A DNA stretch of 64,000 bases from Periconia sp. R9002 (lineage: Eukaryota > Ascomycota > Dothideomycetes > Pleosporales > Periconiaceae): assembly GCA_023627715.1 (NCBI GenBank), contig JAMAHW010000058.1, positions 124,001-188,000 on the forward strand. Reading direction: 5' to 3'. Shown here in pieces: positions 24,755-53,912 of this stretch. The translations under genes and the position numbers were made by a program. The notes under the pieces are model-generated. The model searched no databases. It was not told the DNA's origin and saw only the letters and a list, made by a program, of their open reading frames with translations. How positions within the stretch are numbered: the first letter of the stretch is position 1; every line of letters begins with the position of its first letter.

Positions 24755-26139
24755 CTATATCATTTTATGCCTTTGAGGGTTAAGATAACTAATAAGATTT
24801 AGGGAGCTGTCGGCGGCTATCGAACACCCTATGTATGTATGAACTCCGCATGAGTTTTCCAAGGCTTTATGGGAACTTCACTGAAGCGTTAGCGAGGTTT
24901 CTTCCAAACAGGGGAGGAGATGTCATACAAAGTTTCGGCCAAAATATTTCTATAGCGTTGCACGTATTTGCCATGTCCCTGTTGTATTTGAAATGCTGCG
25001 AAAGCTTCGCAGATATGACTATCGCTTCTTGCGTAATGTCGTACTGGAATATAGAGCTTCACCTTTGGTAGTTTGTCACCGAGCCGGAAATCCGCATAGT
25101 ACAACACGCCCGCCGTGCGATGAGACTTGCTGGGTAATGGCGCATCCATTGAGGTGGAGCATTCGAATATCGATATCCATAGTTTGTGGAGCTTTTGAAT
25201 TCCTTCCATGTATTTCGAATCGCTTCGTGTGCCATTCAGAGTCATGATGCGTTTCACGGATGCGAAATCGGTCCTGTGAGAACGGAAGTAAATCTTAATG
25301 CGAGAAGTAGTTGGTGAGTCGAGGTCGATAGAAAGCATTTCTAAATTGATGTCTTGCTGTTGGTGAAAGAAATCCTGGAGAGCATCGAAGGCATGGAGAT
25401 TCTGGGATGTACACCCTGGAGCATTTCGTACCGACGACGCGATTGCATCCCACACGGAAATTTCCTGGAGGGCGGCTTTGAACCGAGGGAAGAAATAGGC
25501 TTTGGCAACCATATCACCGTTTCTCTTCATATCGAAAGCATAAAACAGCTTGCTAGAATGTCCTTCGGCGGGGTTGCTTTGACCGACGATGAAATCGCGG
25601 GAGAAGTGGTTAAACCACTCCAATTTTGTTAACGGAAGTTGCGCGACCACCCTATCCTGGAATTCTTTGGGTGCGAGCAGGTTGGAAGGGTCTCGAGAAC
25701 CACTGTGTGGACCGATAGGTTCGATTGAAAAACGCATGTTGGGCGGTGTTTGACTGTTCGACCAGTCCCAGCTGAGCTCAATCGGGGTTCCATCGTCCGT
25801 CATAAAGCTGTGCCATTGGCTGGTCTCGATGTTTCCCCCTAGATAGGGAATTATGCTGTGGCGAAAGAAGGATAAAGCACTGTTTTGCGACTGCGAAGGG
25901 TAGTCTGCCGATCTAAGGAGGAGTTTGAACAAAGTCAGAGAGATGGACTCTGTGTCTTTCTGGATCCGCGCAGTCCTCCTCCGGTAGCGAAACGCGGGAA
26001 GCGATATCCGAAGTACTGGAAATTGGAGGCGATAGAGTACATTGTAAAAAGAATACAACGTGTCGATCAATTGATCAGACAGCTGCAGGAACGCTGTCAA
26101 CGCGTGAATAGCGTATGATGGAATAACGCGTTTATCCAT
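24755..26139 (-). CDS. DMATS-type aromatic prenyltransferase
   Basis: ABBA-fold enzymes of this family transfer a dimethylallyl or longer prenyl group to indoles, tryptophan derivatives or other aromatics. Recognisable segments are LLRSADYPSQSQ, SFMTDDGTPIELSWDW (family dimethylallyltryptophan-synthase pattern), NMRFSIEPIGP, AKAYFFPRFKA and KVKLYIPVRHY; the lysine- and tyrosine-bearing strands bind the diphosphate. The long frame stops early. A 53-nt intron at 24876-24928 (GTATGA donor, GCTAAC branch sequence, AAG acceptor) leads to a 40-codon last exon containing VHTYIGCS and LISYLNPQ, the expected C-terminal strands. Start at the ATG at 26137-26139; with no further intron the protein is about 443 residues, the family size. 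A second intron near 25960-26035 is possible because the segment before KDTESIS fits the family poorly. Confidence 0.87.
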
Positions 26140-28811: not shown

Positions 28812-30269
28812 ATGTTCACAGTCAAAGAGCACGTCATCTCTTGTCAAAACATTCGCGGTTACGCACACGGTACAAAGACAGACACAACACCCCTAAAGCT
28901 CGCCGTGAAGGAATATATCCCGACCAACAAGGCCCAATCCTCTGACGGCACTCCACCTGTGACCATCATAGCGGCGCATGCAAATGGCATTTCCAAAGTG
29001 AGTCCGGAATCCTCTCCCCCTGGCGTCAGCATCACGAGACTAAAAGCTGAATTCACTGTTCGCAACAGGAAGCTTACGAGCCTATGTTTGAGGAGCTCGG
29101 GAAAGTTCTGAAAGGCAAACTGAAAGCCATCTGGTTTGCCGACTGCGCCCACCAGGGTGCCAGCGGTATTGTCAATGAAGGCCTCCTGGGAGATGATCGT
29201 GAGTTTTACTCTTCCAGGCTGATTGATGGTGTTCCAAACGTAGCACTAAGACGCGCTTATTCACCGTTTCACAGCAAATTGGTTCGACCATTCGAGGGAT
29301 CTGCTCGTACTAGTAAACGAATTCCGAGATCGGATTCAGCATCCCATCATTGGCGTGGCGCACAGCATGGGTTGCGCGCAGCTGTATGTGAGCCGCATCA
29401 AGACGCAACACTGAGGTCTTCACTCCATCACGTGACTAATCATGGCACCTAGAGTCCAATTATCAAACATCCATCCTCGCCTCTTCCAAAGTCTCATCTT
29501 GATGGAACCAGTAATCCGAGGGACCATTCCTCCAGGCCCTAACGCATCCATGATGACAACAATGAGGCCTGACCTATGGAGTTCGCTCGAAGAAGCCAAG
29601 GCTGACTTCCGCCGCAACAAGTTCTACAAGACCTGGGACCCCCGCGCGCTAGACAAGTATCTCGAGTATGGCCTAAGGCCGACGCCGACGTTTGTGTACC
29701 CAAATGCCCCAGCTGGCTCCGTTACACTAGCCACCACCAAACATCAGGAAGCCTGGTCTTATTTGCGCTCCGTCTTCGCGCCACGTCCTCCCGAGGATCA
29801 ACTAAATGAGCAAGAGCGCCTGATAACATCCGATATGACCGCTGATCTAGCTCAGTATCAATTCCATCGCGCAGAGTCACTCATTGCGTTGCAATCCCTG
29901 TCTAGTCTTCAACCATCCACTACCTGGATCTTCGGAGGCAAGAGCTACATCAACAGCCGCGCCGACAGAGAAGAACTGCTCAAGCGCACTGGAAGTGCTT
30001 CGAGAGGGAGTGTTGGCGTGCAATCCATCGTCATGGAGGGTGCTGGCCACATGCTTCCCCTCGAAAAGGTAAGCGAGACTGCTCACTTGATCGGCGCGCA
30101 AATCGAGGCAGCGCTGGAAAGGTACCAAAGGGAGGTCGAGTTTTGGAGGACGTATGATTCGGGTAAGTCGGATGAGACGAAAGCTGTTGTTTCAGAGAAG
30201 TGGAAGCAGGCGGTGAGGCAAAAGCCGACTACCAAGAGACCGGTGGCGACTACCACGCCCAAGTTGTGA
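28812..30269 (+). CDS. Alpha/beta hydrolase with peroxisomal-type C-terminus
   Basis: Four exons join in frame: 28812-28997, 29069-29198, 29275-29383 and 29453-30269, with clear donors and acceptors. The total is about 413 residues. The nucleophile elbow is HSMGC (a GxSxG-like AHSMG), and the acid/base His is likely that of EGAGHMLP near 30045. The extreme C-terminus is PKL, a non-canonical but known type 1 peroxisomal signal. The family includes yeast Lpx1-like proteins and hydrolases from fungal metabolite clusters that act in peroxisomes. It is convergent with the adenylating enzyme next door, with which it may cooperate by hydrolysing an activated acyl intermediate. The joint role is an inference; the fold is clear. 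Confidence 0.85.
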
Positions 30270-30437
30270 GATAGATGAGAACGATTGAACTCATCAAGGT
30301 TCAGTATTAGCGTTCAAGGTTAGCGTTATGTGTATATCAACGTTTCTTCATGTCTATATCTACAAGCGCCTACTACCTATATCAGAAGCCCCATTTTTAA
30401 AGGTCATTTTTCTATCTCTTTTTCTCGTTCTTCATCT

Positions 30438-32223
30438 TCATGCGGCATAAAGCGCGTCGATTTCCTCCCGGAAGCGCTCCTCGTTCCCTATTCTCGACAC
30501 AGACCCCTTACTAGTCCTCACGAGCCTCTTCTCCGGCGTCGTAAAAAGCACCAACTCTTTACTCAACTTAACAAGATCCGAACACTTCTCATTCGCTTTT
30601 TCCAAAATCGGAATCAGTTCTGCGAGCCGCTCCTCATTCGACTTCTCATTATCCCACTCGACAATGACAAACGGCCTCGCTCTTCCCTGCCCACCCACCA
30701 ACACCCCGGAGATCTCCTTATGCGCCTTGGCAATCTCCTCCTCAACACCCGTAGCGTACAAATCCTCGCCGTGCGAAAACACAACCAAATCGTCAGCGCG
30801 ACCGACATACTTCCAAGCGTCGGGTCGGGAAGGGTGTCTCGCGAATAAATCCTTGGTCCGGAACTCGTGCAGCTCGGGGTAAACCTGAAACACCTGCTGC
30901 CAAGCCTCGAGCCCTTTCTCCCTCACAAACACAGCCTCGTACAGATCGCCCGAGGACGTCGGTTGGAGCTGCATGCCCATGCCGGGACGGAACGAATACC
31001 ACTCCCAATCCTCATCGCCTGTAATGCGCAGGAAATACGCGCCAGCTTCTGTGGAGCCCATGGCGGGTTTGACGGGAACGTAAGGGAGCAGCTTTGCAGC
31101 GGTGTCACGTGAGAGTGGCGCGCCGGCGAAGTATACGTAGTCGTGGGCCCGAAGGCAAGCTAGGCCCTCGGAGGATGCACATAAGGCGTCGATCAGGACG
31201 GGCGGTAGAACGGAGCCTTGGACTTTGCCGCGGGTCATGGTTTCGAGGGCGAGAGCAGGTGTTGTAGGGCCTGTGCCACCTGGCCCGATTACTACAGTTC
31301 CCCCCGTGAAAATTGGGAATTGGAGCGACACGGTCATGCCGACGAACTGAGAGTGTTATTCAATGAAAGAGGGAGATAATTAAATCAGAAGGGTGTCTTA
31401 CGTGTAGTGAGGGGAGAGGCGTGTACCATCGTCGGTTTGCGAAATGGTGGAGCATGTTCTCTTCTTTGGCGTCGGGCATCGTTTCCGCTTCGTACAACGA
31501 TGCCATCATCACTTGCGTATACGTGATTAACTTGGGGAGACCTTTGGACGGTCAGCATCTACGCGATTGGCACAGCAAACGACACTCCAGAGAGCTTCAC
31601 CTGTTGTCCCGGAGGTATGAAAGACCAGCCATGGATCTTCTTTAGCTTCATCAGGTGATTTTGTGAACTTGAAATTGACAACCTCTTCTCTGAACAAGAG
31701 ATCGGACAATGAGGGAATCACGAATTCAGAGCATTGGGCGGATTCTGCTTTGGCGAGGACTTGTGCGACCATGGCGGCATTGTGTTCGCCGTGGAGAAAG
31801 ACCTTGCATTCTGAGGCCTGGACGAGGTGGGCTTGCGCTTCAATGGATGCAAATGGTGATAGTAGGAGGAGCTATATCAAGGTGTCAATCCTACGTGATA
31901 TCAATCACATTTCGTAAGGACAGAGCATTATGAATACCTACTTTTCGTCCAATCTTTGCAGCAGCAACCGCAAGGATGGGATACCGAACGTCCTTTACCC
32001 CGGCGTAGGCGATGGTTTCGAAGGGTTTCTGAGCAGGTGGAAGAGTCTTGCTGAGCCACGCACAAGTATGGCCCACGGCATTGTTGAAATCGGTGTAAGT
32101 GACATCTTTGAATCCTTTGCTGAGGTCGTCGTCGTCTACGGGGATATGTGCCCACACGCGTGATGGATCATTTTTCGCGTAGTCCTCGATCTGGGTGACT
32201 ACCAGTCTGGTTTGGTGTGGCAT
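30438..32223 (-). CDS. Stand-alone adenylating enzyme (NRPS-like adenylation domain)
   Basis: An AMP-forming ligase that would activate a carboxylic acid as acyl-AMP. Frames at 31891-32223, 31527-31772 (with a central exon) and 30438-31337 connect through short introns. Motifs: FHTSGTTG (ATP loop) near 31610, a GSTEAG segment near 31050, YVGRADDLV near 30800 and a C-terminal KGSVSR lysine near 30490. These match the adenylation unit of fungal NRPS-like enzymes, but the protein ends about 20 residues after the final lysine. The carrier domain and reductase or thioesterase domains seen in full NRPS-like proteins are absent. It may use CoA or hand acyl-AMP to another protein. Start at the ATG at 32221-32223. 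Near phenylalanine ammonia-lyase, so cinnamate-type acids are plausible substrates. Confidence 0.82.
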
Positions 32224-33072
32224 TTTGGATGTAAGTCTTTGTTTCAATCAATGTTCTTTGCACGCACAGCGTGGTTTGGGAAGTGAGCTCGGTCTAGCTA
32301 CTGTTGAATCAAACTTCGCCGCAGTGAAAAGTGGGTTCTACTTGCTACCACCTGCTGTATATGTCCATTGGGCATTGTCCGGGGTCCTTAAGCTTAACCA
32401 AGCTTAGTCAAGAAGAAACAAGCGTAAACTAACGGGTAACGTTACCGGGAATGAGCCGCTCGGTGGAAATTAGCTCCTCGAAAGATACCCACTTAGTCTA
32501 CTTCGAACTCCAATTCGACGAATCAGCGTCGAGTTGCACAACAACACCAATTCCTCGTTTACAAATCTATACAAACTGCCCCACCCCCCTTCCCCCACGC
32601 CTCGCACATATTGGCCTCGGCATGCTTGATCGGATTGATTGGCAGCCGCTGCTAGGTAGGCCTAACCAACTACCGTCTGCAGTTACTGTCTACTGCCGTC
32701 CCTTGGCATGCAGGACGGAGGTATTTTTTTCATCCTACCGCCCTCCAGACCTGCCTAGTGTTTCCAAATACCCATGATGGCACTGTCGATTGTCACCTTA
32801 TCGAGGAACTCGCCTTCCATGTTTGTCGCTTCCACTGGTATGGCGCCTACTCGGACTCCGTCTGCATCAAGCTGCTGTAAATTGAAAGCATGCATGGAAT
32901 CTTGGAATGCATATGGAACCAACTCCGCGTCGAAGATCAATCATGACAGTTTACGCCAACCTTTAACCCTTGGTGTACCAAGCATCCTACCGCGAAGGTG
33001 CCGCAATTCATCATCATCCCCTTCCGTGTTGTCTCCCGCTCAGTGCCTCGCCGCTGGGCAGCAGATGCCATC
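32224..33072. other. Intergenic between divergent ligase and receptor genes, with a possible relic
   Basis: An 850-bp gap between start codons. On the minus strand at about 32755-32940 there is a protein-like frame (DADGVRVGAIPVEA, FLDKVTIDSA) with no ATG until well inside. It may be a fragment of an older gene, but I do not recognise the family. The rest shows nothing specific. Confidence 0.4.
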
Positions 33073-34295
33073 ATGCCTCCCCATCAGCCGACTCCAGAGT
33101 TCCTTGCAGAGGACGATGGACAAACGCTGATTGCGATATCGGTTCTGTTCATCGTCGTCGATACCATCTTCGTCGCGCTACGCTTCTATGCAGTGCATCT
33201 GAAGCGTTCGCCGATAGGTCTCGATGACTTCATCATTCCTGTTGCGTGGGTTACGCATCTTGGGCTATGCGCTCTGGGAATTGGTCAGTCTGGTCACCTT
33301 GTTCAGCTATCCTATTAGGCATGTATCAAAGTACTCACTAGCCAACAGTGATGGTGAAGGTAGCTGGTGTTGGTCGTCATCTCCAGTACAATGTACACAA
33401 AGACCCGCATATCCTCGTGCACTGGGCGAAATCGCTCTACGCACTCGAATGGCTATACCTAGCCTCTGCTGCGCTGCCCAAAATCTCAATGTGTCTGCTG
33501 TACCTTCGCATATTCACCAACAAAGCCGCAAAACTGGCCACGCACGCCGTCATTTGGGTCATCATCTTGAATTGGATCGCGTTCATTCTGGCGACGTCTC
33601 TCCAATGCACGCCGTTTGCATATCAGTGGAACAAGAAGATCCCGGGTGGCAAGTGCGTCGGCCAGCAGGCCTTGTATAAAGCTTCCAGTGCGCCCAACAT
33701 CGCTACCGATGTGGTCATCATGCTCCTTCCCATGAAGACGACTTGGGACTTGAAAATATCAACCGGGCGAAAGATTGCCGTTTTTCTCGTGTTTCTGGCC
33801 GGTAGTATGTAAGTAAAGCAACAACTCTCTCCCCCACTCCCCCACCACCGCTCCAAATCAAAATAAGATGGAAACAAGAAATAAGTATTAATCATGCGCA
33901 CAGGGGAATTATAGCTTCCTGCGTCCGAATGGCCGCATTCTTCCAAACCGACGCATTCGAAGACAACACATGTAAGCCTCCCCCATCCCCACCTTCACCA
34001 CCCCCCTCTAACCCCGCGCGTAACAGGGGCATCCGTACGACTCGTCGGCTGGTCCATTGTCGAACCCGGCATGTACATCTCCGCCTCGTGCTCCGTCCGA
34101 ATGCGGCCCCTTGTCCCCTTCCTCAAACGCAAACTCAACATCACGACCTTCTCGAGCGACAAGTCAAGGGGAAATGGATCCAAGACGGATAATTTGAAGT
34201 TGAGGGGTCTGCCGATATCGAGGTCGGGGTTTGATCGGATCGATAATGAGAATATGGAGGCAGAGTCGACGAAAGGGATTGTGCATGCGATCTGA
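33073..34295 (+). CDS. Fungal rhodopsin-domain seven-helix membrane protein (PTH11-like group)
   Basis: Start at the ATG at 33073. Several short introns (near 33282-33347, 33809-33903 and 33972-34028) connect frames covering about seven hydrophobic helices. Recognisable family segments include LRFYAVHLKR, SPIGLDDFII, YLASAALPKISMCLLYLRIF (helix III-like), a CTPFAYQWN loop with the conserved Cys-Trp pattern, NIATDVVIMLLPM and GIIASCVRMAAFF. This fits the Fung_rhodopsin membrane family, which contains PTH11-type receptors. It would sit in the plasma membrane and may sense an external ligand. A cysteine-rich CFEM domain is absent. Exon boundaries are approximate. Placed between the ligase and the ammonia-lyase; involvement in the same function is unproven. 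Confidence 0.78.
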
Positions 34296-34570
34296 TGGAT
34301 AGGGCAGGGAACCAACGGCGTTTGGGATACGATATGGATGACCTTGAAATTTTGCGGGTTACATATAGACAGTGACTCGTTTGAGAGTGCCTGTTGTATC
34401 ATAAAAAAATCTAGATTTTTACACTTTCCGCGTGCGGCAGCATGCGCAGACTCGATCTTGTGTCTGTAAAAAACCATATCAATCAAAAAGACACAACACA
34501 ACTTCCATTCCCAAGCATCTAAAGCGAACCACGAACATCGATCCTCCCAAACACTCCCCTCCAACCCAAT

Positions 34571-36800
34571 TCAAACCACAGCTCCCACCTCCTCCAGCGC
34601 ACTAATCAAAACCTCCAAAACCTCCCCATCCCGAATCGCCTCGTACATCCTCGTATGAAACGCACCCACCGTCGGCGCCTCCCCCTCCTCCCCCTCCAAC
34701 CTCGGCGTCTGCAACTTCCCGGAAAACAACATCGGAATGCCCAGCGTGCGCCGCACAAATGTGTACAGCTTCTTCGAGCCCGATCCGAGGAGGTGTGTGG
34801 CGTCGCCACCGTGCTGCAGGTACGCATCGCGAGTGGCAAACCACTGCGTGGCGAGCACATCGGCGACGTTCCTGCATAAGCCATCGATGGACGTCAATGA
34901 CGCGTTGGCGGCGCGCAGCTCGTCGTTCTCGAGGAGCGTGAGTTGCAGGCTCCGCGCTATAGCTGGGAAGCGGTCTTCGGCGTTGAGAGAGACGGTAGCG
35001 TCGAAGCTTTTTTGCACTTGTTTCCAGAGGTTCTGCGAGAGTGTGGATTTGGTCGTTAAGACTCCCTCCCTACCCTGTTCAACACTGGCGTAGAAGCCGT
35101 GGATTTTCGCCTCGAAGGCTTCTCGCACCTGCGCGAAGTACTCTATAACCAACGCGCGTAAATCTACGGCCTGGCATGCAGCGACGGCATGCACGGCGCA
35201 CATCTGCGCGAGGACATCGCAACTTGTGGCTGTGTACCGCGCGGAAACCAGCGCGAGTGAGTTCAAGCTTTGGTTCCCGAGCTCGGCGGTCTGGACGTGG
35301 TTGACGGGGGTGGACAGGAAGCCCAGCTCGGCCTGCAGGGCTGCCATGTTGATGTCAGTGCCCTTGAAGATGTACGACGTGCTGGGGTCCTCGGCGACGA
35401 GGTTGGGTGGCAACCCGCGGCTCGTCGCGGGATTAATTGTCTCAGCGCATTGCGAGAAAAGCATGCGTCCTAACGTGTACATGCCCTGTCGCGTTTTCTC
35501 CATAGCTGAGGTCACGGCTTTGGCTTGGAAGTTGCCGCCGTGCAGGACGCGCCCGTCGGGTGTAACGAGCGGGTTGTCGGTGGCGGAGTTGCATTCGATG
35601 GTGATTTGCTGGTGCGCGAGGGTTAGGTCCTCGAGCACGGGGCCGATCCATTGCGGCGCGGTGCGGATGGAGTAGCGGTCCTGGCGGAGAGCCGAGTCAG
35701 CGCCGCTGTTGTCCTTGGTGAGGGCTGAGGAGGCGAGCCAGGCGTAGATGTTGCGCGCCGAGTCGATTTGGCCTGGGTGAGGGCGGATGGCGGCGAGGAA
35801 GGGGTCGAAGGATTCGGAGGTGCCTAGCAGTGCTTCGACGGTCATGGCGGTGAGAAGTTGCGAGAGGATGGCGAGGGTGTGGGCGTCGTGGAGGACGAGG
35901 GCGGCGGTTGCGGCCGACACGGCGGTCCCGTTGACGATGGCGAGACCTTCTTTGGCTTCAAGCGTCACGGGGGTGAGGTTCGCACGCGCGAAAGCCGTGT
36001 CGGCGAAGGCTGGGGATGAGGGAGAAGCCGTGTGCAGACGGATCGTGGATTTGCCTTGGATGGCGCCCGCGATGTAGGACAGTGGGGAGAGGTCTCCCGA
36101 AGCCGAGATAGATCCTCGGAGGGGGATGATGGGGATGATGTCGTGAGTCAAGAGATCGAGTAGACGGCCCAGGACTACACGTCGAACCGCGGAGTGTCCC
36201 TTTAAAAGGGAATTGAGTCGGATGATGATAGTAGCACGGGTCCATGTCTCTGCGAGTTCATTCGCGCCGGCGATGTGTTCTCGAGAGAGATTCCATTTGG
36301 TTGGAGAAGCCTCCCGCGGGGTGTCTTTGGGATCACGCGATGTTTTGTGCGTTATACCGTAGTGAAGCTCGCGGATGAGTACTCGCTGGAGCTGATCCGT
36401 TTCCTTGTTGCGCACATCGGCGGTCCCGCCGAATCCAGTGTTGACGCCTGTGTCTATCATCAGTGACTAAATCTCTCGAAGTGATGTCGCGTATAATTGG
36501 CATAGTCACCGTAAATGATGTCACCGCCTCCGAGGGTTGCCCTGAAAGACTGCAGACTTTTCTCCACATTGGCATAAGACTCCTGGGACAACTGAAGTTT
36601 GCAACCGTGTCTACGCACGTCAGCACATTTGTGACAGTTCTACAGGCGAGACTGTGGGTATACCGTGCAATGGCGACAATCTGGGGGATCTGGAGATTGT
36701 TTCCGTCAAGCTCAAGAGGGACCTTTTCCGAAGTTAATATCGAGTACAGACTTTTGAGCTGCCCGAGCACAATCTGTGAGTGGTGGTCTGTCGACGACAT
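34571..36800 (-). CDS. Phenylalanine ammonia-lyase (PAL)
   Basis: Converts L-phenylalanine to trans-cinnamate and ammonia; the entry step of phenylpropanoid metabolism. Three exons: 36800-36664, 36610-36510 and 36453-34571. The introns are 36611-36663 (GTATAC to GTAG, CTGAC branch) and 36454-36509. Joined, the N-terminus reads LDGNNLQIPQIVAIARHG and then LQLSQES, the expected start. The MIO cofactor triad is in SASGDLSPLS near 36100, and TGVNTGFGG precedes it. Later landmarks are NGTAVSAA and CNSATDNPLV. The total is about 706 residues, normal for fungal PAL, and catalytic residues look complete. The first exon is only 137 nt, so it is easily missed. Its product could feed the neighbouring adenylating enzyme. 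Confidence 0.95.
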
Positions 36801-40095: not shown

Positions 40096-42126
40096 TCAAA
40101 ACCCTAGATACACAGACTCGCAATCCTTATCTGAGTAGTATGTCCGCCCCCTCCAAGAATCCCATGCGTGGTTCTGGTATGGCTTTCTGTCACCTGTATA
40201 GATATCCGGAGCCTCACTCTCACCTTGAAGTCTGGCGATGAAACTCAGGAGGCCATGCTCAACAGCTCCACCTTCGATTTTCAACCTTCCTCCACGTATC
40301 GGTGACAACAATGTGTCGATGGGGGTCTTCTCGTCCCGGTAATTGTCAGCAGGGTGTTCGACCAGGGGATCTGCGCCCTCGCTGACGAGGAAGGCGAGAA
40401 AATTGCCAAAAGATTGAATCACGTTTTTGGTGTAGGGGCAGTTGTATCCCCGAGGGTGGTCGTGTAGATGGTCCTCGTTGAGACAATCAGTATGAACGAA
40501 GTTGGAGACAAGTTGATGGAGAGAGGTGGGGTCCTGATTGGGTTTATCATCGATAACATGGTTGATGTTGGCGCCAGCCCGCACCAAAGTGCTAATGCTC
40601 GCCCTTCCGATAACTTTCACCTCGACCCAATGCGATGGGTGGGCGATGCGGTTCCGCATTTTACCCTTGTCTACTATGACCCGGCGGAGCAGCGCGTCTT
40701 TTTCGGTTTGCCCGAGCGAGTTGAGTTGCGGCATCAAGAGTTCCAAAAACTGCCCCCATAGCGCTTCTACATCCACGCTTTCGGCATTGGATGAGGGTTT
40801 GTTTTGGCCGTCCAGCCGTACCAGTAATCTAGCCAAGTCTGGTCCGGTGCCGCCGTGCTCGACAAGGAACCTGATGACGGAGAAAACCTCGGGTATTGCC
40901 AAAGACTCGATACCCATTTGAGTCAGGAGTAGTTCCACGGGAGATGGAATCTCGGCAAAAGTTCGATCGTGTAGTTCCCGGTCGGAGTTGTTATAGCGGT
41001 GTTCTATCCGCGGCGCGATAGGACTCGTCATGTTGGCGCCCAATACATCAATAAAATGCACTAATCCTTCGCAAGGAGTTAAGGATTGCTCTGTGCCATT
41101 TGAAGAAGTCATGCTCCATGATTCTATGGAACTGAGATAGGCAAGGAGTGGCGTAGTGCAAATATGTTCGTCTCCTTCCCGGCGTGTCTTACGATTGTGA
41201 CACATCTGATTTATGTCCGCTCCAGCAGCTACACAAGCATCCAAAATGTCAGGGATACCCTTGATACCCATGTACCGTGCGGCCATGAAGATGGGAACAT
41301 GGGTATATGTCGCCGGATGTGCATCGCGTAACGAGTCCTCGATGTCTACGTGGGCCCCACGAGCCACAAGAAGATTAAAGATGTCCAAGTCTCCGCGCAA
41401 ACACGCTGCCCCTAAAGGTGTCACATGGGGCTTCTTATCTGCTCCTACACTTGGCAAAATGGTTGTTTCGTTCAAGTGTGCGCCGTAGTCAAGCAGTGTT
41501 TCCAGGAGTGCAGGTGAGGCCCATTGCACAAGACGAGGGAACGGCAACCTGCTAACCAAAGCTTCGGCCTCTGACTGCCTATCTGTTCTGTCGTCCTTCC
41601 AGTACGGCGTTTCTGCTCGAGCCGCAACAAAGGCCCTCAAAAAACTCTCATTCCAGGGCTCAGCCATTCTTTCCGCGAATGCTCTCAGCTGCGAGTTTTT
41701 TATTACGTCATCGGTACAGTCCTTTCGTGTGATTCCAACGCCAAATTCAAGCAGTAGATCGAATGCTTCAAGCTGCCCTGCCTTCAAAGCTACGTGTAAT
41801 GTAGGAGACACTTCCGTATGGTACTGACTTGCGTACATGTTCGACCGTACGGCGTCGAGATTTGATCCGTACAACGCAGCTTTCCGGATAGCATCTAGAT
41901 TACCAGTCATACAACCGTTCCGCAGGGCAGCGTTGCGGGCATCGAACGTCTTGTATAGCAGGGGCTCGAGACGTTGTTGGAGAAAACGTGAACATTGCGA
42001 GAGACGAGATAGCGAGGAGCATTTGATGTGATCTCTTTCGTCCAGTGCGCCGATATCATGATAAATTAGATTTCCGAGGATAGAATCGAGGATCTCGTTT
42101 GGGAGTGCCTCCAAAGGCGACACCAT
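40096..42126 (-). CDS. F-box and ankyrin-repeat protein
   Basis: An intronless gene of about 676 residues if started at the ATG at 42124-42126 (MVSPLEALPNEILDSI); the frame stays open further upstream but the F-box begins there. The first 45 residues match an F-box. The next several hundred residues hold degenerate ankyrin repeats (for example HVTPLGAACLRGDLDIFNLL, FMAARYMGIKGIPDILDACV and a later STLVRAGANINHVI). Such proteins act as substrate receptors of SCF ubiquitin ligases; the partner is unknown. No sign of breakage. It lies on the edge of the gasdermin/protease region, but I see no direct link. Confidence 0.8.
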   Translation of the reverse strand: MVSPLEALPNEILDSILGNLIYHDIGALDERDHIKCSSLSRLSQCSRFLQQRLEPLLYKTFDARNAALRNGCMTGNLDAIRKAALYGSNLDAVRSNMYASQYHTEVSPTLHVALKAGQLEAFDLLLEFGVGITRKDCTDDVIKNSQLRAFAERMAEPWNESFLRAFVAARAETPYWKDDRTDRQSEAEALVSRLPFPRLVQWASPALLETLLDYGAHLNETTILPSVGADKKPHVTPLGAACLRGDLDIFNLLVARGAHVDIEDSLRDAHPATYTHVPIFMAARYMGIKGIPDILDACVAAGADINQMCHNRKTRREGDEHICTTPLLAYLSSIESWSMTSSNGTEQSLTPCEGLVHFIDVLGANMTSPIAPRIEHRYNNSDRELHDRTFAEIPSPVELLLTQMGIESLAIPEVFSVIRFLVEHGGTGPDLARLLVRLDGQNKPSSNAESVDVEALWGQFLELLMPQLNSLGQTEKDALLRRVIVDKGKMRNRIAHPSHWVEVKVIGRASISTLVRAGANINHVIDDKPNQDPTSLHQLVSNFVHTDCLNEDHLHDHPRGYNCPYTKNVIQSFGNFLAFLVSEGADPLVEHPADNYRDEKTPIDTLLSPIRGGRLKIEGGAVEHGLLSFIARLQGESEAPDIYTGDRKPYQNHAWDSWRGRTYYSDKDCESVYLGF

Positions 42127-42441
42127 GTTTGGTGAACGAAAAGAACAATTGAGGCGTGGTTGATGGTCTGTGATTGGATTGAATAAACCGATGGTAATTA
42201 ATTTCACTGAATGATGAATCAACTGAATTGATACCTGGACAAGTATATATCTTGGTGCATTTTTATGACTCATTTCTTTCTTGGCTGATATCTATTTATT
42301 TTTGGGTGTTCCTTATTGAATTCCGTATAGCTAACCCGAACATGACTGGTGTGCAAACTTAAGGCGGCAGTGCGTTATCGGTTGCCAAGGACCTATCCAC
42401 ATTTACGTGGACCGGAGTTCCTGCTCATGTATGTGTCATAC

Positions 42442-43987: not shown

Positions 43988-44821
43988 CTAAGCGCCAACT
44001 TCTTCGTAATCCTCCTCGCTCAGCTCAGTGAGCACTAGGTCTTCAGTCTTCGGCCTTTCATCATCATCGTCGTCTTCATCATCTGAATCTCCATCAGCCG
44101 CAAGTCTAGTAGCATCAACATTAGGTCCTTCATTTTTCAACGCCAGGTCCTTTGTGATCCACCCTTGCGTAGAGATCTTTTTCAATTCAAGCGCAAAAAT
44201 CCTGCTGTCTCCCATCTTGCCCTTGAAAATAGTAACGGTTTGACGATTACTGGCCACGTTTGCCTGGACAGCACCTCCAGTCGTCCCAGGTACGCCAGCT
44301 GCCAACATGATCTTCCCGATAGGCACTTCAGTGTGACCCTCACGCTCTATAGAAGCTTTTCCCTCCCAGGAAAGCTCTACATCCTCACAAATCATAACGC
44401 CGACAACGAGACAAACAGGCGCACGGAAACGCGACATCCATCGGGGAACGAACATTTGAACGTCCTTGTCCTCTTTCAGTTTCGGCCAGAACTGATCATG
44501 CTGCTGGAGCCGCTTGTACCGAACAAGCTTGCCGGAAAGTTGTATCGCACTGTGTGTTTCTCCCTTGAACGATACCCCGGCGAGAGACTTCAGTTTTACA
44601 GCAGCCTCGTTAGTTTTTGTGCCGTCGTTGTCGAGGACAAAATCTGTAATGGAGCCTTCTACAAATTCGTGTTTGTTGTATTGCAGTGGTGCGTCAGGCA
44701 CATAGTTGTCTGTCGGGCGTAAAAATTCCTTAACCACGGAACCGAGGATCTTTTGTTCGAATTTTGAAGCATCGAGCCAGGATTGGTATTTTAAGATAAC
44801 AAATTCGGGGTCGCCTTTCAT
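43988..44821 (-). CDS. Fungal gasdermin-like pore-forming protein (HET-Q1/RCD-1-type)
   Basis: A single-exon protein of about 277 residues from the ATG at 44819-44821 (an in-frame codon 75 bases upstream is an alternative). Segments that fit fungal gasdermins are ILGSVVKEFLRPTDNYVP, KLVRYKRLQQHDQFW, VPRWMSRFRAPVCLVVGVMI and FALELKKIS. Family members have an N-terminal membrane-pore domain restrained by a short C-terminal tail and are released by proteolysis, killing the cell. Here the last 50 residues are strongly acidic (a DDEDDDDD run) and could be that regulatory tail. The neighbour upstream, transcribed in the same direction, is an S8 protease, as in Podospora HET-Q1/HET-Q2. Assignment is from family pattern and context, not a search. 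No frameshift or stop is present. Confidence 0.76.
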   Translation of the reverse strand: MKGDPEFVILKYQSWLDASKFEQKILGSVVKEFLRPTDNYVPDAPLQYNKHEFVEGSITDFVLDNDGTKTNEAAVKLKSLAGVSFKGETHSAIQLSGKLVRYKRLQQHDQFWPKLKEDKDVQMFVPRWMSRFRAPVCLVVGVMICEDVELSWEGKASIEREGHTEVPIGKIMLAAGVPGTTGGAVQANVASNRQTVTIFKGKMGDSRIFALELKKISTQGWITKDLALKNEGPNVDATRLAADGDSDDEDDDDDERPKTEDLVLTELSEEDYEEVGA

Positions 44822-45298
44822 CGTTTGAGATACAGCGGCAGAATTCTGCTGCAAGATCTGGTGAGAGTGATCTTTCGAAGATATGAATTGTTGCAAATCA
44901 AAAACAGCTCAAACTCTTTTCAATGGCGGTCCACGCAATACAACTCTGACATTCAACAATTATCCACGGTTGTACATGTAAGCTCGTATTGTTGCCCCGC
45001 CCCCGCTCGAAAGTGCCTCGCGTGTCGACGTGGCGCGATACAACACCCTCCAGCGTTGCATGGGTTACAGCATAGCCACGCGGGTGTCAGAATATCCGCA
45101 CCCATAAAACATTTTAAGGGCCTATAGTGTAATAATAAATCGAATCATTTTTCTCTGATAATAAAATTTCAAAAAGCAAAGTAAAAACAGTTTGTGGAAA
45201 TACTGTCTTAGTATCCTACTTACCTCTAACAGAATTATATCAATAGGGGGGATAAGTGCTTAGCATATGAAGTGATGAGTGTCATAAGTGCGGGCTAT

Positions 45299-48200
45299 TT
45301 AAGTTTTCCAAGCTCTCAATATACTCTTCAAATCCGCCTTAACTTGCTCGTCTGTGTGCTTCTCGAAGAAATATCGTGGACTAACCCAATCGTACCCTCC
45401 CTGAGAACCTTCTCTCTTGTGCGACATCATCCACAAAATCTCTCGCATACCTTCCGGATGCCCTGGTTCGATATCCCACTCATACTCCCCTAAATACTTG
45501 GTGATATAGGCACGCATGAATGCTGCTACTGAGACAGCGACAGGCGTGGCGATAGATGTCCCTGATAAGTACTTTGCGCCTTGCTCATCGTGAAAATCTT
45601 CTCTATCCCAAGGCCAGGAAGAACGTACACAATCGCCCACGAAACTGAAATTGTGCTTCCGTGGCTCCGGAGATGGGTTTAACTTCGAGCTGTTGCCTCC
45701 TCCATCGGCTGAGTGAATGCAGAACACACGATCGTAGTTCCCAGGATACGTTCTGGGTCTATTCCCAGCATCATTGGAGGCAGATGCGAATACAAGAATG
45801 TTCTCGCGCAGACATTTTTTGATCTGTTTCTGGACCAAGTCTGGGCTGTCGGGACGCCTGAACCCAAACGACAGAGAGATCATATCCACACCCCACTTCC
45901 GTGCTTGACGCAGGCCCTATAATGCGTCAGACTAGACAGATCCATATTAGCTGGGAGACATACCTCAACGATACCAGCTCGATTCTGAGATTCCCGGCTT
46001 TCGACTACTTTGATAATATATAAGTCAACGTTGATGGTCAGGTCGCGTATTATGCCCGCAATGTGCGTGCCATGCCCGGACGTGTCTTGTATCGTGCTGC
46101 CCTCAACACAACATTTCTGCCCTTTGATCAGACCAACAAAATCCGGATGATGTAGATCAATGCCAGTATCCAAGACGGCTACTTTGATGCGCTCTTTTGC
46201 TTGTGTGCCTACAGTCGCAATTAGTTTGAAGAGCATAGCGGAAACGTCCAGATTCAGTATCTTTTTTTGCGAAACATAAACATGTGAAGAATCTTACCTA
46301 ACTTCTCCTTTCGCAAGCGTTTAAAGTCTTTTACCCATGCTTTTGAAGACTTGCATCTGAGGCATACAATTAGTTCTCAAAATATCAATGTTGATACATG
46401 GTAGACGCTATGACATACAGTAGCGGAAAGTCCCCATAGCTTTGCTGCTCATTACCATCACCAAAGAGTTGGACGGGGTCAGCCTTGGGGTTATGCATGA
46501 TGTAATGTTCTTCCGCGTGCTCTTCCTTTCTTATCACAGTGACTTCGGCAAATCGTACCCCTTTTGAGCGAGAGGGTGGTTTGTTATCCTGCGTACTAGT
46601 GCCAGGTGTTGAGGAAGGTGCAGCTGCAGCAACCGGATTGGCGAATCCAAGGTGATCTAAGTCAGAAGAGACCGTAATCGGCATATCTTTCGAAGATGTG
46701 TGTTCAGAACAATGACCCTGTTGGTTGTAGTGTAAATTCTTAGTCGCATACTCTAATTGCTTGTGAAGATCCTTTACAATCTCGTACACGATAGTTCGAG
46801 CCGCTTCTGTCTCATCACTAGATCGGCCGGTAGTGATCAGACTTCGGCATTTTTGATCAAAGCTCGAACATGTCTTTAAAGCCTTGTAAAAAAATAATCT
46901 TCCGAGATCCTCAGTCCATTGCTCGTCAATGAAATCGTCTAACGTCGTGCCTTCGGGGTCGGCTCCAGAGTCCTTCCGAATCCGAAGGTAATCAAGCGGC
47001 CTTCCACATTCAATCTCCAATAGCATTCTTGTTAGAATCCGAAACCTGTCATCAAAGCTGGATCTTGGATCTGCTTCTATTTTCTCTTCATGGTTCGAAG
47101 AGTCGGTGGTGCTATCGGCTGGAGGTATGCACAAAGCATAAGGGCCTTTGGATATGAATTTTCCACTGTCATCAAGAAGGAAGAAAATGGATTTTGCATC
47201 CCAAAAATTAATGAGACTCTCAGCCTCCGATGCTAGAGTAAGTCCAAGGACCAAACTGGCCCCAATAGCTTTCTTTTCAGATTCTCGAAACCGAGATTGG
47301 AGCGGGTTACTTTCGAGGAGATGTCGTAATGACCTTAGAGTTTGCGTTTCTTGTACGGGTTCTGCATCTCCATAATACACGTGCATCTCATCGCCGCATA
47401 CCCCGATGTCAAGTTTCTCAGGTCTTTCGTAGCTATCACTGATATCGTCGCAGAGATTATCTGCGAGGCACCAATCGTCATTTCTGTCTGGGTGTTAACC
47501 AATGAAGACAAAATGCTTGAAAAGGACGAATTACTTTTCAGCCAATGGTTTCATTCGTGTTTCTTGCCATTGAAAAGGCTTTTGACACGGTGTAGAGAGA
47601 TATAACTCCACATGAGGCTGTTCCCGCTCCGAAGAAGAAGAAGTATCCCACTCTGGTAATCGCAAAAGAACATTGTGAGAATCTTTGCAATACGCAAGCT
47701 TCCTAATCCAGGCAAGTAAGATTTGTAAAGATTGGATTGTTTCTCGAATTTGGCTTTTACATCCAATTCTCTCTTCGTTAACCTTCTCTTCTAATTCGGG
47801 TATTGTGACTTTAGTGAGATCAGGCTGGGTCAAACGGTCCACAAACGAATTGAATGTGTCAACCTTCTCCAGAGTAGTTTTCAAGTCTGTGGTGAGGAAC
47901 AGTTTGCGTCCTTTCCCCGCAATCATAACAAACTTAAGAGTTGAAGTGTCCAGGACTTTGAGAAGATTTTCGAAGTCTGGATAATCGCTCTTATTGTTGA
48001 TGGGTGATTTTACGAAGAGAGCGGTATTCACAACATGATTAAGCTGGTAGCAGAGTTGCTGTAGTAAAGGAACAATTTTCTCGGACGATTGATCGTCCAT
48101 AGGTCTGCTAAAAAGGACATCTAGATCGTTCCTGTTCATGATTTTTCGTAAGCCATCCTCAACTAAGGAAGTCTCGGTTCTGAGCCTAACGGCATCCGCA

Positions 48201-48370
48201 GTCAAAGTTGGAGCATTCTCGAGTCTTCTCTCAATTCGAGGATATCGAGTTGTTGTTAAGAGTTGGCGCCTAGAGAAGTCCCTTGTCAGCAGTGCCATCA
48301 TAGCAAAGGACTTGCGGCCCCAACGAATTTTACATACCTGTGAGATCGGAGACCCTTCAGTAGCTTCCAT
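45299..48370 (-). CDS. S8 subtilisin-like protease with DUF7580-like N-terminal region (HET-Q2-like)
   Basis: A large protein built from several exons. The N-terminal helical part runs from about 48370; an intron at 47484-47534 joins it to CLADNLCDDISDSYE and the SLRHLL/LGLTLAS pattern typical of the fungal DUF7580 region. Introns near 46310-46440 (GTATGT/CTCAG) and about 46210-46300 (GTAAGA/GTAG) lead into the protease, and another lies near 45890-45960. The catalytic residues are all present: Asp in VAVLDTGID, His in GHGTHIAG, oxyanion Asn in FASASND and Ser in LSGTSIATP. No secretion signal is seen, so it probably acts inside the cell. It lies just upstream of the gasdermin-like gene on the same strand, so cleavage of that protein is the leading hypothesis. 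The exact start is uncertain (ATG at 48370 or 48481). Confidence 0.8.
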
Positions 48371-48737
48371 TCTGTGATGTCTTGATGTTGAAAGCCAGGA
48401 TTTGCTACCATTCTTGTGCAACGGTCGCACTATGGACGAGCAAGAAACAATGGGGAAAATGATATGAGGTGAAATAAGCATGCGATGTAGAACGAACAGA
48501 CTCGGCGCTACGAGCGCGTTGTTACAGGTTATGGGAGGTCGACCCCACTTTCAGCTCGCTCGCTTGTGAAGCCCGTGTTAGGGAAGCGCCACGTGAGAGC
48601 TTGCCAAAGTTGCATGGCGGGACGTGCCTCCTACATCCGGCAAAATGACACCCCCCACCACTGTTCGTCGCGCGATTATACAATTCTCCTGCACGCCGTT
48701 AGTTAATACTACGTTATAGTCTCTGTTTCATGGCAAG
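48371..48737. promoter_or_regulatory. Bidirectional promoter region between two S8-domain genes
   Basis: About 370 bp separates the two outward-facing start codons (256 bp if the upstream protease ATG is used). Both genes end in S8 domains, so coordinated or balanced expression from this region is likely. No defined operator or TATA box was recognised with confidence. Confidence 0.5.
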
Positions 48738-51700
48738 ATGAGCAGCACCGATAGAGAACTCGAAGATGGTCGAAGTGAGGATGACGAGGACAAAGACCCA
48801 ATCAGACTTATGGCAACTGACTGTGTCTACCTCCTTGAGACCAGCCTGACACACACAACTGCTTCTAGTCGAGCTCTTCCTCCCTTAGCACTGAGCTTCT
48901 TGGAGGACTATAAACGTCGGTTCCAAGGTTGGTGCTCGTATATGTGCGTCATAACAGAACATGAACAAGCGTCTCTGGATTACCGACTGCGAAATCATCC
49001 CTCACTACAAGATATGGTTATGCGGTTGCTTGACGTCCTCCGGGACAATTTGCTACTGATAGCGAATCATGAATCGATGGATTATGAGCCCGAATCTTGC
49101 ACCAGTGAAGCCGATCTACCGTACGACATTCAGGTCGGCTTCACGGGAATCAAGGAGTCTGTCGTTCGCCTCAACAAACTTGGTCTTGCTATTAGGACAT
49201 CCTCGAGATCTACTTTGGTCGCACGAGCAAGGAGATTTGCCGCTCAGTATGTGGCAACCCTGTACATTTTGCGGTGTTCTTGCTTTATCGCATACTAATA
49301 TATTTCACAACGTCACAGATATCCGGACCTTGTTCCATTATCCGATTTCGAAGACCGTGCGTATATGGCTTTACAATATCTTTATCCCAGCGCCCCCGAG
49401 AGTCTACGACAGCAGCTGTCGGATTCAATGACAGACAGATACGCCAAACTTCTCTACGAAACATTCAGAACAAGAGGAGGGGAATTGCCACGTTCTCCAA
49501 AGGTCGAATCTTTGGAGAAGGAAATTGGGGATGGTGCTCCCCCAAGCGAACAACCTTTGGATATATCTGCAGGCGCAGTGAAGGCCCCACAAAGAGAATC
49601 TAACAACCAAGGGTTGCTACCAATAATTCCTGCTTCATCCGTTTATACGGCTGCCGTCCAAGAGAATGTGGGAAATGAGGGAACTCGTAGCGTAACACCC
49701 TCGAAAGCACCGCGAACCCTAGCTGGACAAAGTGGTACGTGCTTTCAGCCTATTTTATCGCCTTCTATAGTGGTTCACTTGGAAAACAATGTACCAGGCA
49801 GCGCATTGATTTACTCTATTAACGATATCGGTGATATAAATTTGGGAAGAAACGCTATGTCTTCAGTCCGGTGTCTTTCGCATTACCTAGTATTTGCTAA
49901 CGCAGGGTACCGTGCTCAGGAAAGCTCCGAGAGCCCCAACTCCCAGACTTCGCATGGGACAGAGAGCCAACAAAATGTGAGTGGTGTCCTCGGTTCAACG
50001 AACGGTCTTGGGTACGCTTCAGTCCCACCCGCAGTTGTCCTGTGCAGTGGACAGTTGAAGGCCAACGCCATTATCGGCAAGACCTTGAGCCATACGTATG
50101 CCTCGCGGAAGCCTGCCGCGAAACTCGACCCTCGTTTGCGTTGTCAAACAGGTGGTTCAATCACATGAAAACCAACCATTCGGAGGCTTGGTCTTCAAAG
50201 ATTCATTCCCAACCCCTATGGACATGCAAAGCAGTGACAAAGACGGGCGAACTAGTGCACGAAAATGACACAACTTATACATTCTCCACCAAACAACAGC
50301 TAATGGGTCACTGGAAGCTTCAGCATCCTGGATTACTTCCTCATCCTGAAACTGCTGACAATGACGGCGACGAGGAAAAATGTGTGGGGTCACAAAGCAC
50401 GCGCTCAGTCTTCTCGTGCCCCCTGTGTTCATTCACAGAAGAGCATGAGAATGAACAAGAGGAGGAAGAGGCGATTACATCTGATGCGATGGGATCACAC
50501 ATTGCTGATCATCTGCATCACCTGATGATGGTAACGTTGCAAATCATAAAAGCCATGGAGCCTGTGAATCATGACGTCGCTGATCTTGCCAGCGGGCCCA
50601 GTACAGGGTTGTCTGGGCCATGCTCAGAGTTAGATGAGGATGCAATCCAAGCAAAGAGTGATGAGAGACTGGAAGAGTTGATTCGGGAACTCAGAGATAG
50701 TTATCAAGAGCAATTGGCCACCCTTCAAGCTTTGTACCCGCTATGGTCGGACAAGAATCTCCTGTGGGTCATCGATGACGCTAAAGGAGACCTTGAGGCA
50801 AGCACGCGAAGGGTTCTGGATATCGAATTCGACCGAAAGGAGGCGAAAACTGACCCTCAATCTGGCAGAGAAGCACTTTCCATGCATAATCTCTCTATTT
50901 ATGAACAAGATGTCATCGGCGCTCGGACCTTTTCGCAAACGTTTACAGAACCCTCAGAGTCCTCGGATGACCAGGATGATGTAGACAAAAACTTTTATCT
51001 TCTTGATGTGTGGAGGGCAGAGGAAATCTGGAATGCCGAGGACAGGAAACTCATACCCAACGGCGCTCTTGATCGTATCGTGACTGAAAGCATGGTACGC
51101 AAGGCCTTGGATCTAGATAGCAGCGAGACTTCAGAGCAATTGATGGGGTTTGTCCTCTCATGCGCAAAGCGGTGCTTCGCTATCGTATCTTATGCGTTTT
51201 TCGACGGGGACGCAATACTGCTACGAGACATAATATCAGCCTTCATGAGGCATGGTTTCATGGACAGCAGTTTACCATTTCTAAATCCTGAAGAGGGGAT
51301 AGCAGAAGAAAACATCCTGGGTAAGATCTCAACACTTGAGCCATCTATTTTGAGCAAGATGGACGTCGAAAAAATTATTGAAAGATTTTTGAGCATTCAA
51401 TGGAAATTCCTAGCGCCAGTTTTCTCACCTCTTTCAATGAACCAAGAGATTTTGGAGAACGCGATTCTGCCATTTACGGAAAAGTACAGTGTAGGAAGAG
51501 GCGCATCTAGTCAGGTCTTTATGTGTAAGATACATCCAGACCACCTTGTTGGCTTCCAGGTGAGATTTACCTCTTTCACGACTCAATCCTATGCAGATTT
51601 ATTGATAAATCTTCAAGAAAGATATTCTCACATATTTTGCGGTGAAAGAGTCGAAATACTCAACACGACAGTCGAGCCATTTAGTCAGGAAGACAAAAGC

Positions 51701-53912
51701 GTTAGAGGCAATAGGCAGCCTCAGTGATCAACATATTGTCCGTTTCTTCACGACTTTCATTATCCGCGACGAACACGAGCTAAAATATAGCATTATTCTA
51801 GAATTGGCAGACGGGAACTTGCGAGATCTTTGGAAAACTTTTTCACATTCGAGTTTGACTGGTCCTCGAGTGATTGCATTTGTTGAACAGCTTAACGGTC
51901 TGGCAGTAGCACTATTTGCGGCTCAATCTATGGCTATTAGCCATGGAAACCTGAAGCCTTCGAACATATTTTTGTTTCGTGACGGTGGAGAGTTTGGAAC
52001 TCTTAAGATAGGTGACTGGGAAGAGGCGCTTGAAGATGCGGCATCACGTCAGTACAATGCCGTGGTAAATCGTAGCCGTTCAAGTTATGAAGCACCAGAG
52101 CTCATAGATTACTTTCAGATATCCAGATTATCTGATCTCTGGTCGTTTGGTTGCATAACACTGCAGTTCCTTATTTGGCTCATATACGGTTTGCAAGGTT
52201 TGGAAGATTTCAACGAACAGTTGAGCAGTTCACCATTCTATCAGGTAAAAACTGGAGGGATCAGGGAGGAAGCTGCCGTTCACGAAGTTCCAACAAGATG
52301 GATGGCATGGATGGCGCAGCTTCCAATTTTCCAGGTCGGAAAGACCGCTTTGGGTGATCTGCTCGATATCATTCAAAACGGCCTTCTTGTTGCACAGCTC
52401 CCTGAACAAACGTCTCAACACCTTCGATTATCGAGTAAGCCGTCGAGGCTCAACGCTATTCAGTTAAAAGAGAGACTGCAGCACATCCTTGAGTTGTGCA
52501 CGGATGAGAATGAGAGTTACTGGCAGGTATATGAGACCCTTAGACCGCCTCCCGTATCAAAGCAGAAGGTAAGTCAGTTTCCAGCTACTTATAAAGAGCA
52601 AGCGCATTATGAACGGTACAGAGCAAATGGTTTATCAAGCTGACTTCAAGCAGGGACTCAACGTGCCACCTCATCCGTCTGCATCCTCAACCGTGGCAGA
52701 AGATACCGAACACAGCGCTCTAAATAAAGAAATTCCGAACGCTTCGTACGACATGCTCATAAGCGAAGGCCCACCTCCAGAGTGAATCCCTCGAACAAAC
52801 CCTGTTGTATGAACAGATACTAACAAAATCTCAGAGATAATTCGTGGTTCCAGTGTGTTGCATCTTTCTCAAAACTACTACAAACCGCCAATGCAACCGA
52901 TATCTCTCCGGTCAAGGTTGCTATCCTTGGTGACGAGGTTAATCCTGAACATGGTCGCATCAAGGGACGTATAGCCCAGGGAGTTTCGTTCAAAGAAACA
53001 CTCGGGTCAAATACGGAGTCAAGCAGAATACATCCTTGGTATCTTCCTACTCAGGGATATGGTACGCACGTAGCAGATATTATATGCAGACTTTGTCCTG
53101 GTGTGCAATTATATATTGCACGCTTGGATGAAGAAACCATTAACAGTGGTGAAAAAACGACTTTTACTGTCAGATCAGCTGCAAAGGTATGAAGTGATCA
53201 AGAATTCTTTTCTATGCCACAGGTTCTAACGTATAGGAAGGCGGTTGAGTGGGCTATTTCACGTGGCGTCGACATGATCACTATGAGCTGGACAATCGAG
53301 CCTACGGAAACAACGAATAAGGAATTCATAGCGTTTAACGTGGCTGTCCACAAAGCGTTTGAAAACAACATCGTTATGTTCTGTAACGGGTCTGGATTGC
53401 AATCTAACAGTATGACTTCCTATCCCAGTGATTTTGATCAGTGTATCACGATACGCAATGACGTTGAGCGAGACAACCCAACCCTGCAGAATGATTGTTT
53501 CTGGCTCCCAGGATACAATATTCCTTCTGGAGACTTTTCAAGTCATTTGTCTGGAACTTCCATCGCTACAGCAGTTGCTTCCGGGCTTGCTGGTCTTTTA
53601 ATCTTTTGCACCCGTCTTCTCGGCGCCAATAATCTTCTAGGCTTCGATCTCCAATCAACAGATAGGATGGAACGGGCCTTCAAAGTCTTGTCAAGAGACT
53701 CTAGGAATAGATTTCTAGAAGTTGAAACATGGATCTACGTGTTTCTATATCATTTACCTAACATTCGAGAGGGAGGTGACGAGAAGAAGGGTAGACAGGA
53801 GCACACAAGCGAGGAACATAGGTTGGAAAACAAATTCGGAACCATGGTATGGGATGAGAACTGCACTGCTGCGCTGGGGATCGCGATCGGCCGGCTTATA
53901 TATGTAAGATAA
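48738..53912 (+). CDS. Multidomain fusion: zinc-finger region, CUE-like, protein-kinase-like and degraded S8 domains
   Basis: I read one gene of roughly 1,500 residues with short introns, including 49247-49318, about 49735-49905, about 49980-50055, 51560-51617, about 52529-52586, about 52784-52841 and about 53190-53240. An N-terminal helical region is followed by a Cys/His-rich C2H2-type zinc-finger segment (DLEPYVC, HMKTNH, FSCPLCSF; 50.05-50.55 kb). Next comes a CUE/UBA-like module (LQALYPLWSD, GDLEASTRRVLD; near 50.73-50.83 kb). The kinase-like domain has GRGASSQVF and AVKESK, but HGNLKPSN in place of HRDLKPEN, and GDWE in place of DFG. The terminal S8-like domain keeps His (GTHVAD) and Ser (SGTSIATA) but has LGDEV where LDTGI is expected, and FCNGSG without the oxyanion Asn. 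It is probably a signalling or regulatory protein rather than a protease. Splice sites are approximate and a two-gene model cannot be excluded. Confidence 0.68.

Follow-up and report, generated by a model that had tools for sequence, protein, structure and literature searches.

We propose that a locus of the ascomycete Periconia sp. R9002 encodes a fungal regulated-cell-death module, in which a receptor/pseudokinase unit would control a protease and a gasdermin acting as executioner, and we give this reading a probability of about 0.68. The locus lies in a window of 64,000 nt, the whole stretch of DNA analysed here (positions 124001-188000 of contig 58, hereafter C58, of the 42.9-Mb assembly), and comprises a gasdermin gene, a DUF7580-S8 protease gene and, divergent from the latter, a gene for a receptor-like protein (Table 1). 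The gasdermin/S8 pair is a further member of the known class of gasdermin/Q2L clusters, and the new part of the finding is the third gene together with the repeated pairing of such receptor-like genes with DUF7580 genes in this genome.

A gasdermin gene linked to a DUF7580-S8 protease gene

A preliminary description of this stretch had placed a gasdermin-like gene and an S8 protease gene on the same strand about 0.5 kb apart. Both genes were found at those positions on the minus strand, the S8 gene upstream and the gasdermin downstream, with 477 bp from the S8 stop codon to the gasdermin ATG. A plus-strand reading of both genes was rejected, as the two stretches hold many stops on that strand. 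The protease gene therefore lies well within the 10 kb of the gasdermin that delimit a gasdermin/Q2L two-gene cluster. The pair described earlier is real, and what that account lacked was the DUF7580 domain and the divergent upstream gene.

Judged by its predicted structure, the 277-residue protein is a fungal gasdermin: the model shows the gasdermin N-domain fold, and RCD-1 is the closest solved structure, as the gasdermin-like character suggested in the preliminary description would have it. The identification follows from this predicted fold and from a profile search in which RCD-1-2 was the top match, weakly (E 0.13), and not from Pfam, NCBIfam or a single-sequence PDB search, which returned no gasdermin (no Pfam family at all matched the protein). 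In an alignment of 71 of the 89 sequences (the window protein and 88 matches), a short tail is conserved after the acidic loop, with a predicted local distance difference test score (pLDDT) of 70-86 over the block of residues 251-270, and this tail may be inhibitory. The nearest named relative is from Periconia macrospinosa (82% identity), and one gene of this gasdermin subfamily was found in the genome.

The protease gene is interrupted by four introns of 51, 62, 89 and 47 nt, placed from splice sites and frame, rather than forming one open frame. The first residues of the protein are uncertain, homologues differ there, and splice sites for an additional intron are seen near the gene start, of which none tried keeps the frame. 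Pfam matched DUF7580 and S8 in two frames each, the former at 3e-18 and 2.4e-8, the latter at 6.7e-9 and 4e-8. The equivalents of D667, H699, N783 and S856, which we take to be the catalytic residues of the S8 domain, are invariant across 14 aligned homologues, in line with the earlier statement that the Asp, His, Asn and Ser of subtilisins are kept; by these residues the protease domain is catalytically complete and predicted to be competent. The alignment took in 14 of 17 matches, P0101, P0102 and P0107 being left out as showing no DUF7580. Two of these, P0101 and P0102 from Penicillium, carry a related S8 domain without DUF7580, one of them with TPR repeats, so that the sensor part of such S8 proteins is exchangeable.

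The pairing of protease and gasdermin exceeds chance, because 8 of the 14 DUF7580-S8 homologues (P0091-P0094, P0096, P0100, P0103 and P0104) apparently share a contig with a gasdermin of this family and three of these eight pairs, in three other species, have consecutive locus tags. The organism agrees within the eight pairs wherever names are given, and two of the shared contigs span only 8,686 and 48,869 bases, a shared large contig meaning co-residence and not adjacency. No gasdermin-contig match was obtained for the remaining six homologues, four of which lie on contigs shorter than 14 kb. In this pair the gasdermin is most likely the substrate, and the S8 enzyme with its full catalytic set the protease that cuts it.

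Such neighbours are common: a protease gene is reported close to ~80% of the gasdermin genes of fungi, and an S8 gene close to ~63% (PMC12881547, PMC10197012). The known proteases are varied: 18 architectures cover about a third of ~1,500 Q2L proteins (PMC10197012, PMC12881547, PMC10989679), and fusion partners of the protease domain may be repeats or other domains predicted to be kinase-like (PMC12881547). The locus resembles the gasdermin/Q2L clusters (Clave et al. 2022, via PMC10197012, PMC10989679, PMC12881547) in having a gasdermin with a short C-terminal tail beside a multidomain S8 gene; it differs from them in its sensor part, DUF7580, a domain not named in the available portions of these reviews, and in its third, divergent receptor-like gene.

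DUF7580 is likely a dead kinase fold, as judged from remote similarity. A profile (A3) built from 11 of the 24 DUF7580 genes of this genome gave 49 matches at E <= 10 among PDB sequences, 47 of them kinases or pseudokinases, with many redundant IRAK4 entries, the other two being a COMMD-like and a DNRLRE protein. The best E value was 0.0036; the two top-ranked entries are presumably plant kinases, and MLKL came third and fourth. HRD and DFG are motifs of kinases, and in our reading of the DUF7580 alignment neither was seen. A comparison by hhalign of A3 with the kinase domain of the window found nothing (probability 0.2, control 0.1) and lends the kinase reading of DUF7580 no support. An AlphaFold model of one DUF7580-S8 homologue had a mean pLDDT of 43.5 and was not used.

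A divergent receptor-like gene and its recurrent pairing with DUF7580

The third gene points away from the protease gene across a short intergenic region and encodes a protein whose kinase-like and S8-like domains both appear dead (Table 1). Its S8 matches were at 3.3e-7 and at 0.019, the latter below the curated cut-off, and its S8 domain is 26% identical to that of the adjoining protease, with three of the four catalytic residues replaced. The fingers owe their name to pairs of Cys and His noticed on visual reading; Pfam gave no zinc finger in this gene, and the best in a relative was zf-C2H2_4 at 0.025. The N-terminal part is common to a jgi protein, P0108, which carries NB-ARC. The divergent gene is probably an upstream regulator or sensor of the DUF7580-S8 protein, and a sensor role in particular could be put forward as a hypothesis.

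The same arrangement recurs in the genome. A search for DUF7580 gave 25 matches, merged to 24 genes, and a finger protein from the C57 locus used as query gave 26, which after merging and with the C58 gene added make 18 genes. A head-to-head finger-family partner lies within 6 kb of 16 of the 24 DUF7580 genes, and 16 of the 18 finger-family genes have a DUF7580 partner (C58, C33, C26, C57, C77, C59, C44, C31, C23, C12, C64, C9, C105 twice, C129 and C143). Random placement would give ~0.0017 such partners per gene, a figure that is not a probability of independent events, as duplication of whole pairs may have given rise to them. With 42 of 52 candidates scored, the N-terminal half of P0108 matched 12 genes, 10 of them head-to-head with DUF7580, and its NB-ARC half, taken as control, matched 20 genes, none of them so placed. 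Kinase matches as a second control gave no head-to-head case among 16; two of the 16 have a DUF7580 gene no more than 6 kb away, but oriented differently. The divergent arrangement was seen in all six loci read directly (C58, C33, C26, C57, C77 and C59) and follows from positions alone elsewhere.

What follows the N-terminal part differs from locus to locus. The receptor C-terminal parts, or the next downstream frames, include TPR at C33 and a tyrosine phosphatase frame at C59, the latter a candidate part of the receptor gene, and the C77 receptor shows further finger-like motifs by eye. At C26 (L060 4940-7599, plus strand), the receptor-like partner is followed by two macro domains, a possible nucleotide-sensing variant. 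We found no report of receptor/DUF7580 pairs among the titles, abstract openings and text passages listed, and the term DUF7580 in none of the papers searched, subscription papers and bioRxiv lying outside this scope.

Plant head-to-head sensor/helper NLR pairs with integrated decoys (PMC12258605) offer a likeness, being divergent pairs in which one partner has a variable C-terminal part; in the divergent gene of the window that part holds a probable pseudokinase and a probably inactive version of the enzyme class to which its partner belongs. They differ in that neither window partner has an NB-ARC or NACHT domain (Pfam scans of the open frames of both genes at E <= 1). Among Sordariales two-NLR clusters only 13 of 225 are head-to-head (PMC12258605).

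Table 1. Features of the three-gene locus, in window positions
Feature	Position	Strand	Description
Fungal gasdermin gene	43988..44821	-	Single exon, intronless; 277 aa; by predicted fold
Gasdermin segments (our reading)			Pore domain ~1-232; invariant R238; acidic loop ~241-258; C-terminal tail ~259-275, likely inhibitory
DUF7580-S8 protease gene	45299..48370	-	Five exons: 48370-47535, 47483-46419, 46356-46298, 46208-45964, 45916-45299; 940 aa
S8 peptidase domain	45497..46191	-	D667, H699, N783, S856; Pfam matches, motif positions, alignment
DUF7580 (PF24476), probably dead kinase-like domain	46751..47725	-	Pfam matches; profile against PDB
Candidate bidirectional promoter	48371..48737	.	367 bp between divergent coding regions; putative promoter function
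Divergent receptor-like gene	48738..53912	+	~1616 aa: N-terminal domain, C2H2-like fingers (by eye), kinase-like domain, S8-like domain
Kinase-like domain, probable pseudokinase	51618..52568	+	PF00069 4.5e-16; HGN for HRD, DWE for DFG
S8-like domain, probable pseudoprotease	52911..53603	+	Asp to Gly, His to Tyr, Asn to Gly; Ser kept

The rest of the window holds, downstream of the gasdermin on its strand, a long open frame that carries ankyrin repeats and weakly matches an F-box (40096-42291, minus strand). At 24889-36466 a Trp_DMAT prenyltransferase (9.5e-90), an AMP-binding enzyme and an aromatic amino acid lyase (2.2e-136) lie in proximity, a possible secondary-metabolite cluster, and at 3331-6271 (minus strand) two frames look diterpene cyclase-like by eye, the larger without a Pfam match at E <= 1e-5.

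Possible alternative executioners at related loci

The N-termini of DUF7580 proteins were scanned in 15 of the 24 genes (L002-L016). A hydrophobic, Gly-rich start such as MSGFEVAGVVLGSIPL occurs in 9 of the 13 scanned loci without S8, in neither of the two with S8 and in none of nine S8-bearing homologues with an N-terminus (P0096-P0100 were excluded from the count, as their sequences begin inside the protein). The association of start and S8 gave a Fisher p of 0.14 in this genome alone and of 0.0006 when pooled, values obtained on related sequences with a start pattern written after examples had been seen. We take these hydrophobic starts to be HeLo-like membrane helices. This agrees with the description of HELL domains on kinase/pseudokinase proteins (PMC12881547). 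The DUF7580 proteins may be likened to MLKL and the fungal HELL-kinase/pseudokinase proteins, both in the kinases, MLKL included, that their profile ranks among solved structures and in the starts of most scanned loci without S8; they differ in that the S8-bearing loci and homologues lack such a start and carry a protease. A swap of executioners, HeLo-like start against S8 and gasdermin, could be hypothesized.

The only other DUF7580-S8 gene seen in the genome, at C33, also has a divergent finger-family gene, and the order there is that of the window: a receptor-like gene bearing TPR, the divergent DUF7580-S8 gene and then, on the same strand, a candidate gasdermin. The regions around four other S8 loci (C33, C47, C93 and C15) were examined, and the remaining S8 loci were scanned over ~1.5 kb around for the gasdermin subfamily of the window. 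The gasdermin-like neighbours at C47 and C33 were chosen by eye and then tested; no gasdermin was recognized around C93 and C15. At C47 a second gasdermin-like gene is clear (L048:3428-4333, plus strand; E 3.4e-6 to RCD-1-1); it converges on an S8 gene (L048 4433-7080, minus strand) whose N-terminal part is patatin-like by eye. The C33 neighbour (L047:1834-2790, plus strand) is a candidate third gasdermin, its top matches being two bacterial gasdermins at E 0.1 and 0.17. A profile of the window gasdermin (A1) gave nothing above threshold in five regions (C33 twice, C47, C93 and C15); compared with A1 by hhalign as single sequences, the C47 neighbour reached a probability of 10.6 and the C33 neighbour 1.0, against 0.1 for a control, which leaves the C33 gasdermin unsupported there. 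BLASTP of the C33 against the C47 neighbour gave E 0.002 over 74 residues.

Somewhat tentatively, we suggest that the genome holds about 16 divergent receptor/executioner pairs, each made of a finger protein whose C-terminal sensor part can be exchanged and a DUF7580 pseudokinase protein, at least nine of them with a HeLo-like start and two with S8 and a gasdermin (one of these only a candidate). Such pairs may represent one control module for necroptosis-like or pyroptosis-like death, and the dead kinase and dead S8 of the window receptor could be a decoy of its partner's enzyme.

Proposed mechanism and alternatives

In the resting state, the short C-terminal tail of the gasdermin would pack on the pore domain. 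On activation of the DUF7580-S8 protein, the subtilisin domain would cleave the gasdermin beyond R238, either within the acidic loop or shortly ahead of it, and release of the tail would let the pore domain oligomerize in the plasma membrane, resulting in cell death. DUF7580, probably a dead kinase fold, would be the control domain of the protease, and the divergent finger/pseudokinase/pseudoprotease gene, held in one unit with it by the shared intergenic region, would be the probable upstream regulator or sensor. We consider cleavage of the gasdermin by its neighbour likely and the three-gene module probable.

The alternative that survives best, still an unlikely one, is that gasdermin and protease form an ordinary gasdermin/Q2L cluster of two genes and that the gene divergent from them is an unrelated neighbour or a decaying pseudogene. 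Protease-gasdermin clusters are common enough (PMC12881547, PMC10197012), and several observations weigh against the three-gene module: the divergent gene model needs two inferred introns as short as 34 and 36 nt, and model or gene may therefore be faulty, catalytic residues of its product are lost, and a homologue search with it gave one match among 7,999 scored candidates. An unrelated neighbour is hard to reconcile, however, with a divergent family that adjoins two thirds of the DUF7580 genes, C33 included, and with NB-ARC and kinase controls that gave no head-to-head case.

An allorecognition (het) locus like HET-Q is much less probable. The preliminary description had likened the pair to HET-Q1/HET-Q2 of Podospora anserina, and gasdermin and S8 protease are indeed the two HET-Q components, with gasdermins of nearly equal length (278 aa in HET-Q, 277 aa here; PMC10989679). 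That comparison fails in that HET-Q1 and HET-Q2, as idiomorphs, are distinct genes which occupy one locus (PMC12881547) and meet on fusion of unlike strains, and HET-Q2 has 388 aa (PMC10989679) against the 940 aa of the window protease. Here the two genes stand together in a single genome, like clustered gasdermin/Q2L pairs, so that allorecognition is not implied; consecutive locus tags place them together in three other species, and most of the homologues apparently share a contig with a family gasdermin. Least probable of all is that the gasdermin fires without cleavage while its S8 neighbour acts elsewhere, as might be supposed from its closest solved structure, RCD-1 of Neurospora crassa, which is activated when two allelic variants meet and not by cleavage (PMC12881547): the conserved linkage to an intact protease, the single gene of the subfamily in the genome and a conserved acidic loop and tail resembling a removable inhibitor all speak against it.

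For the regulated-cell-death module that we favor, the upstream wiring, and not the gasdermin/S8 pair itself, would be the part that matters. A 2025 review places the nature of the triggering stimuli among the major questions still to be answered, and regards the control of gasdermin-activating proteases as a matter for later work (PMC12881547). Should the divergent gene prove to be a sensor, the present locus and those like it elsewhere in the genome would be direct and testable candidates for the missing trigger step. One control module would then be linked to two executioners, and the pair in the window may exemplify a self-destruct module that is common among fungi.

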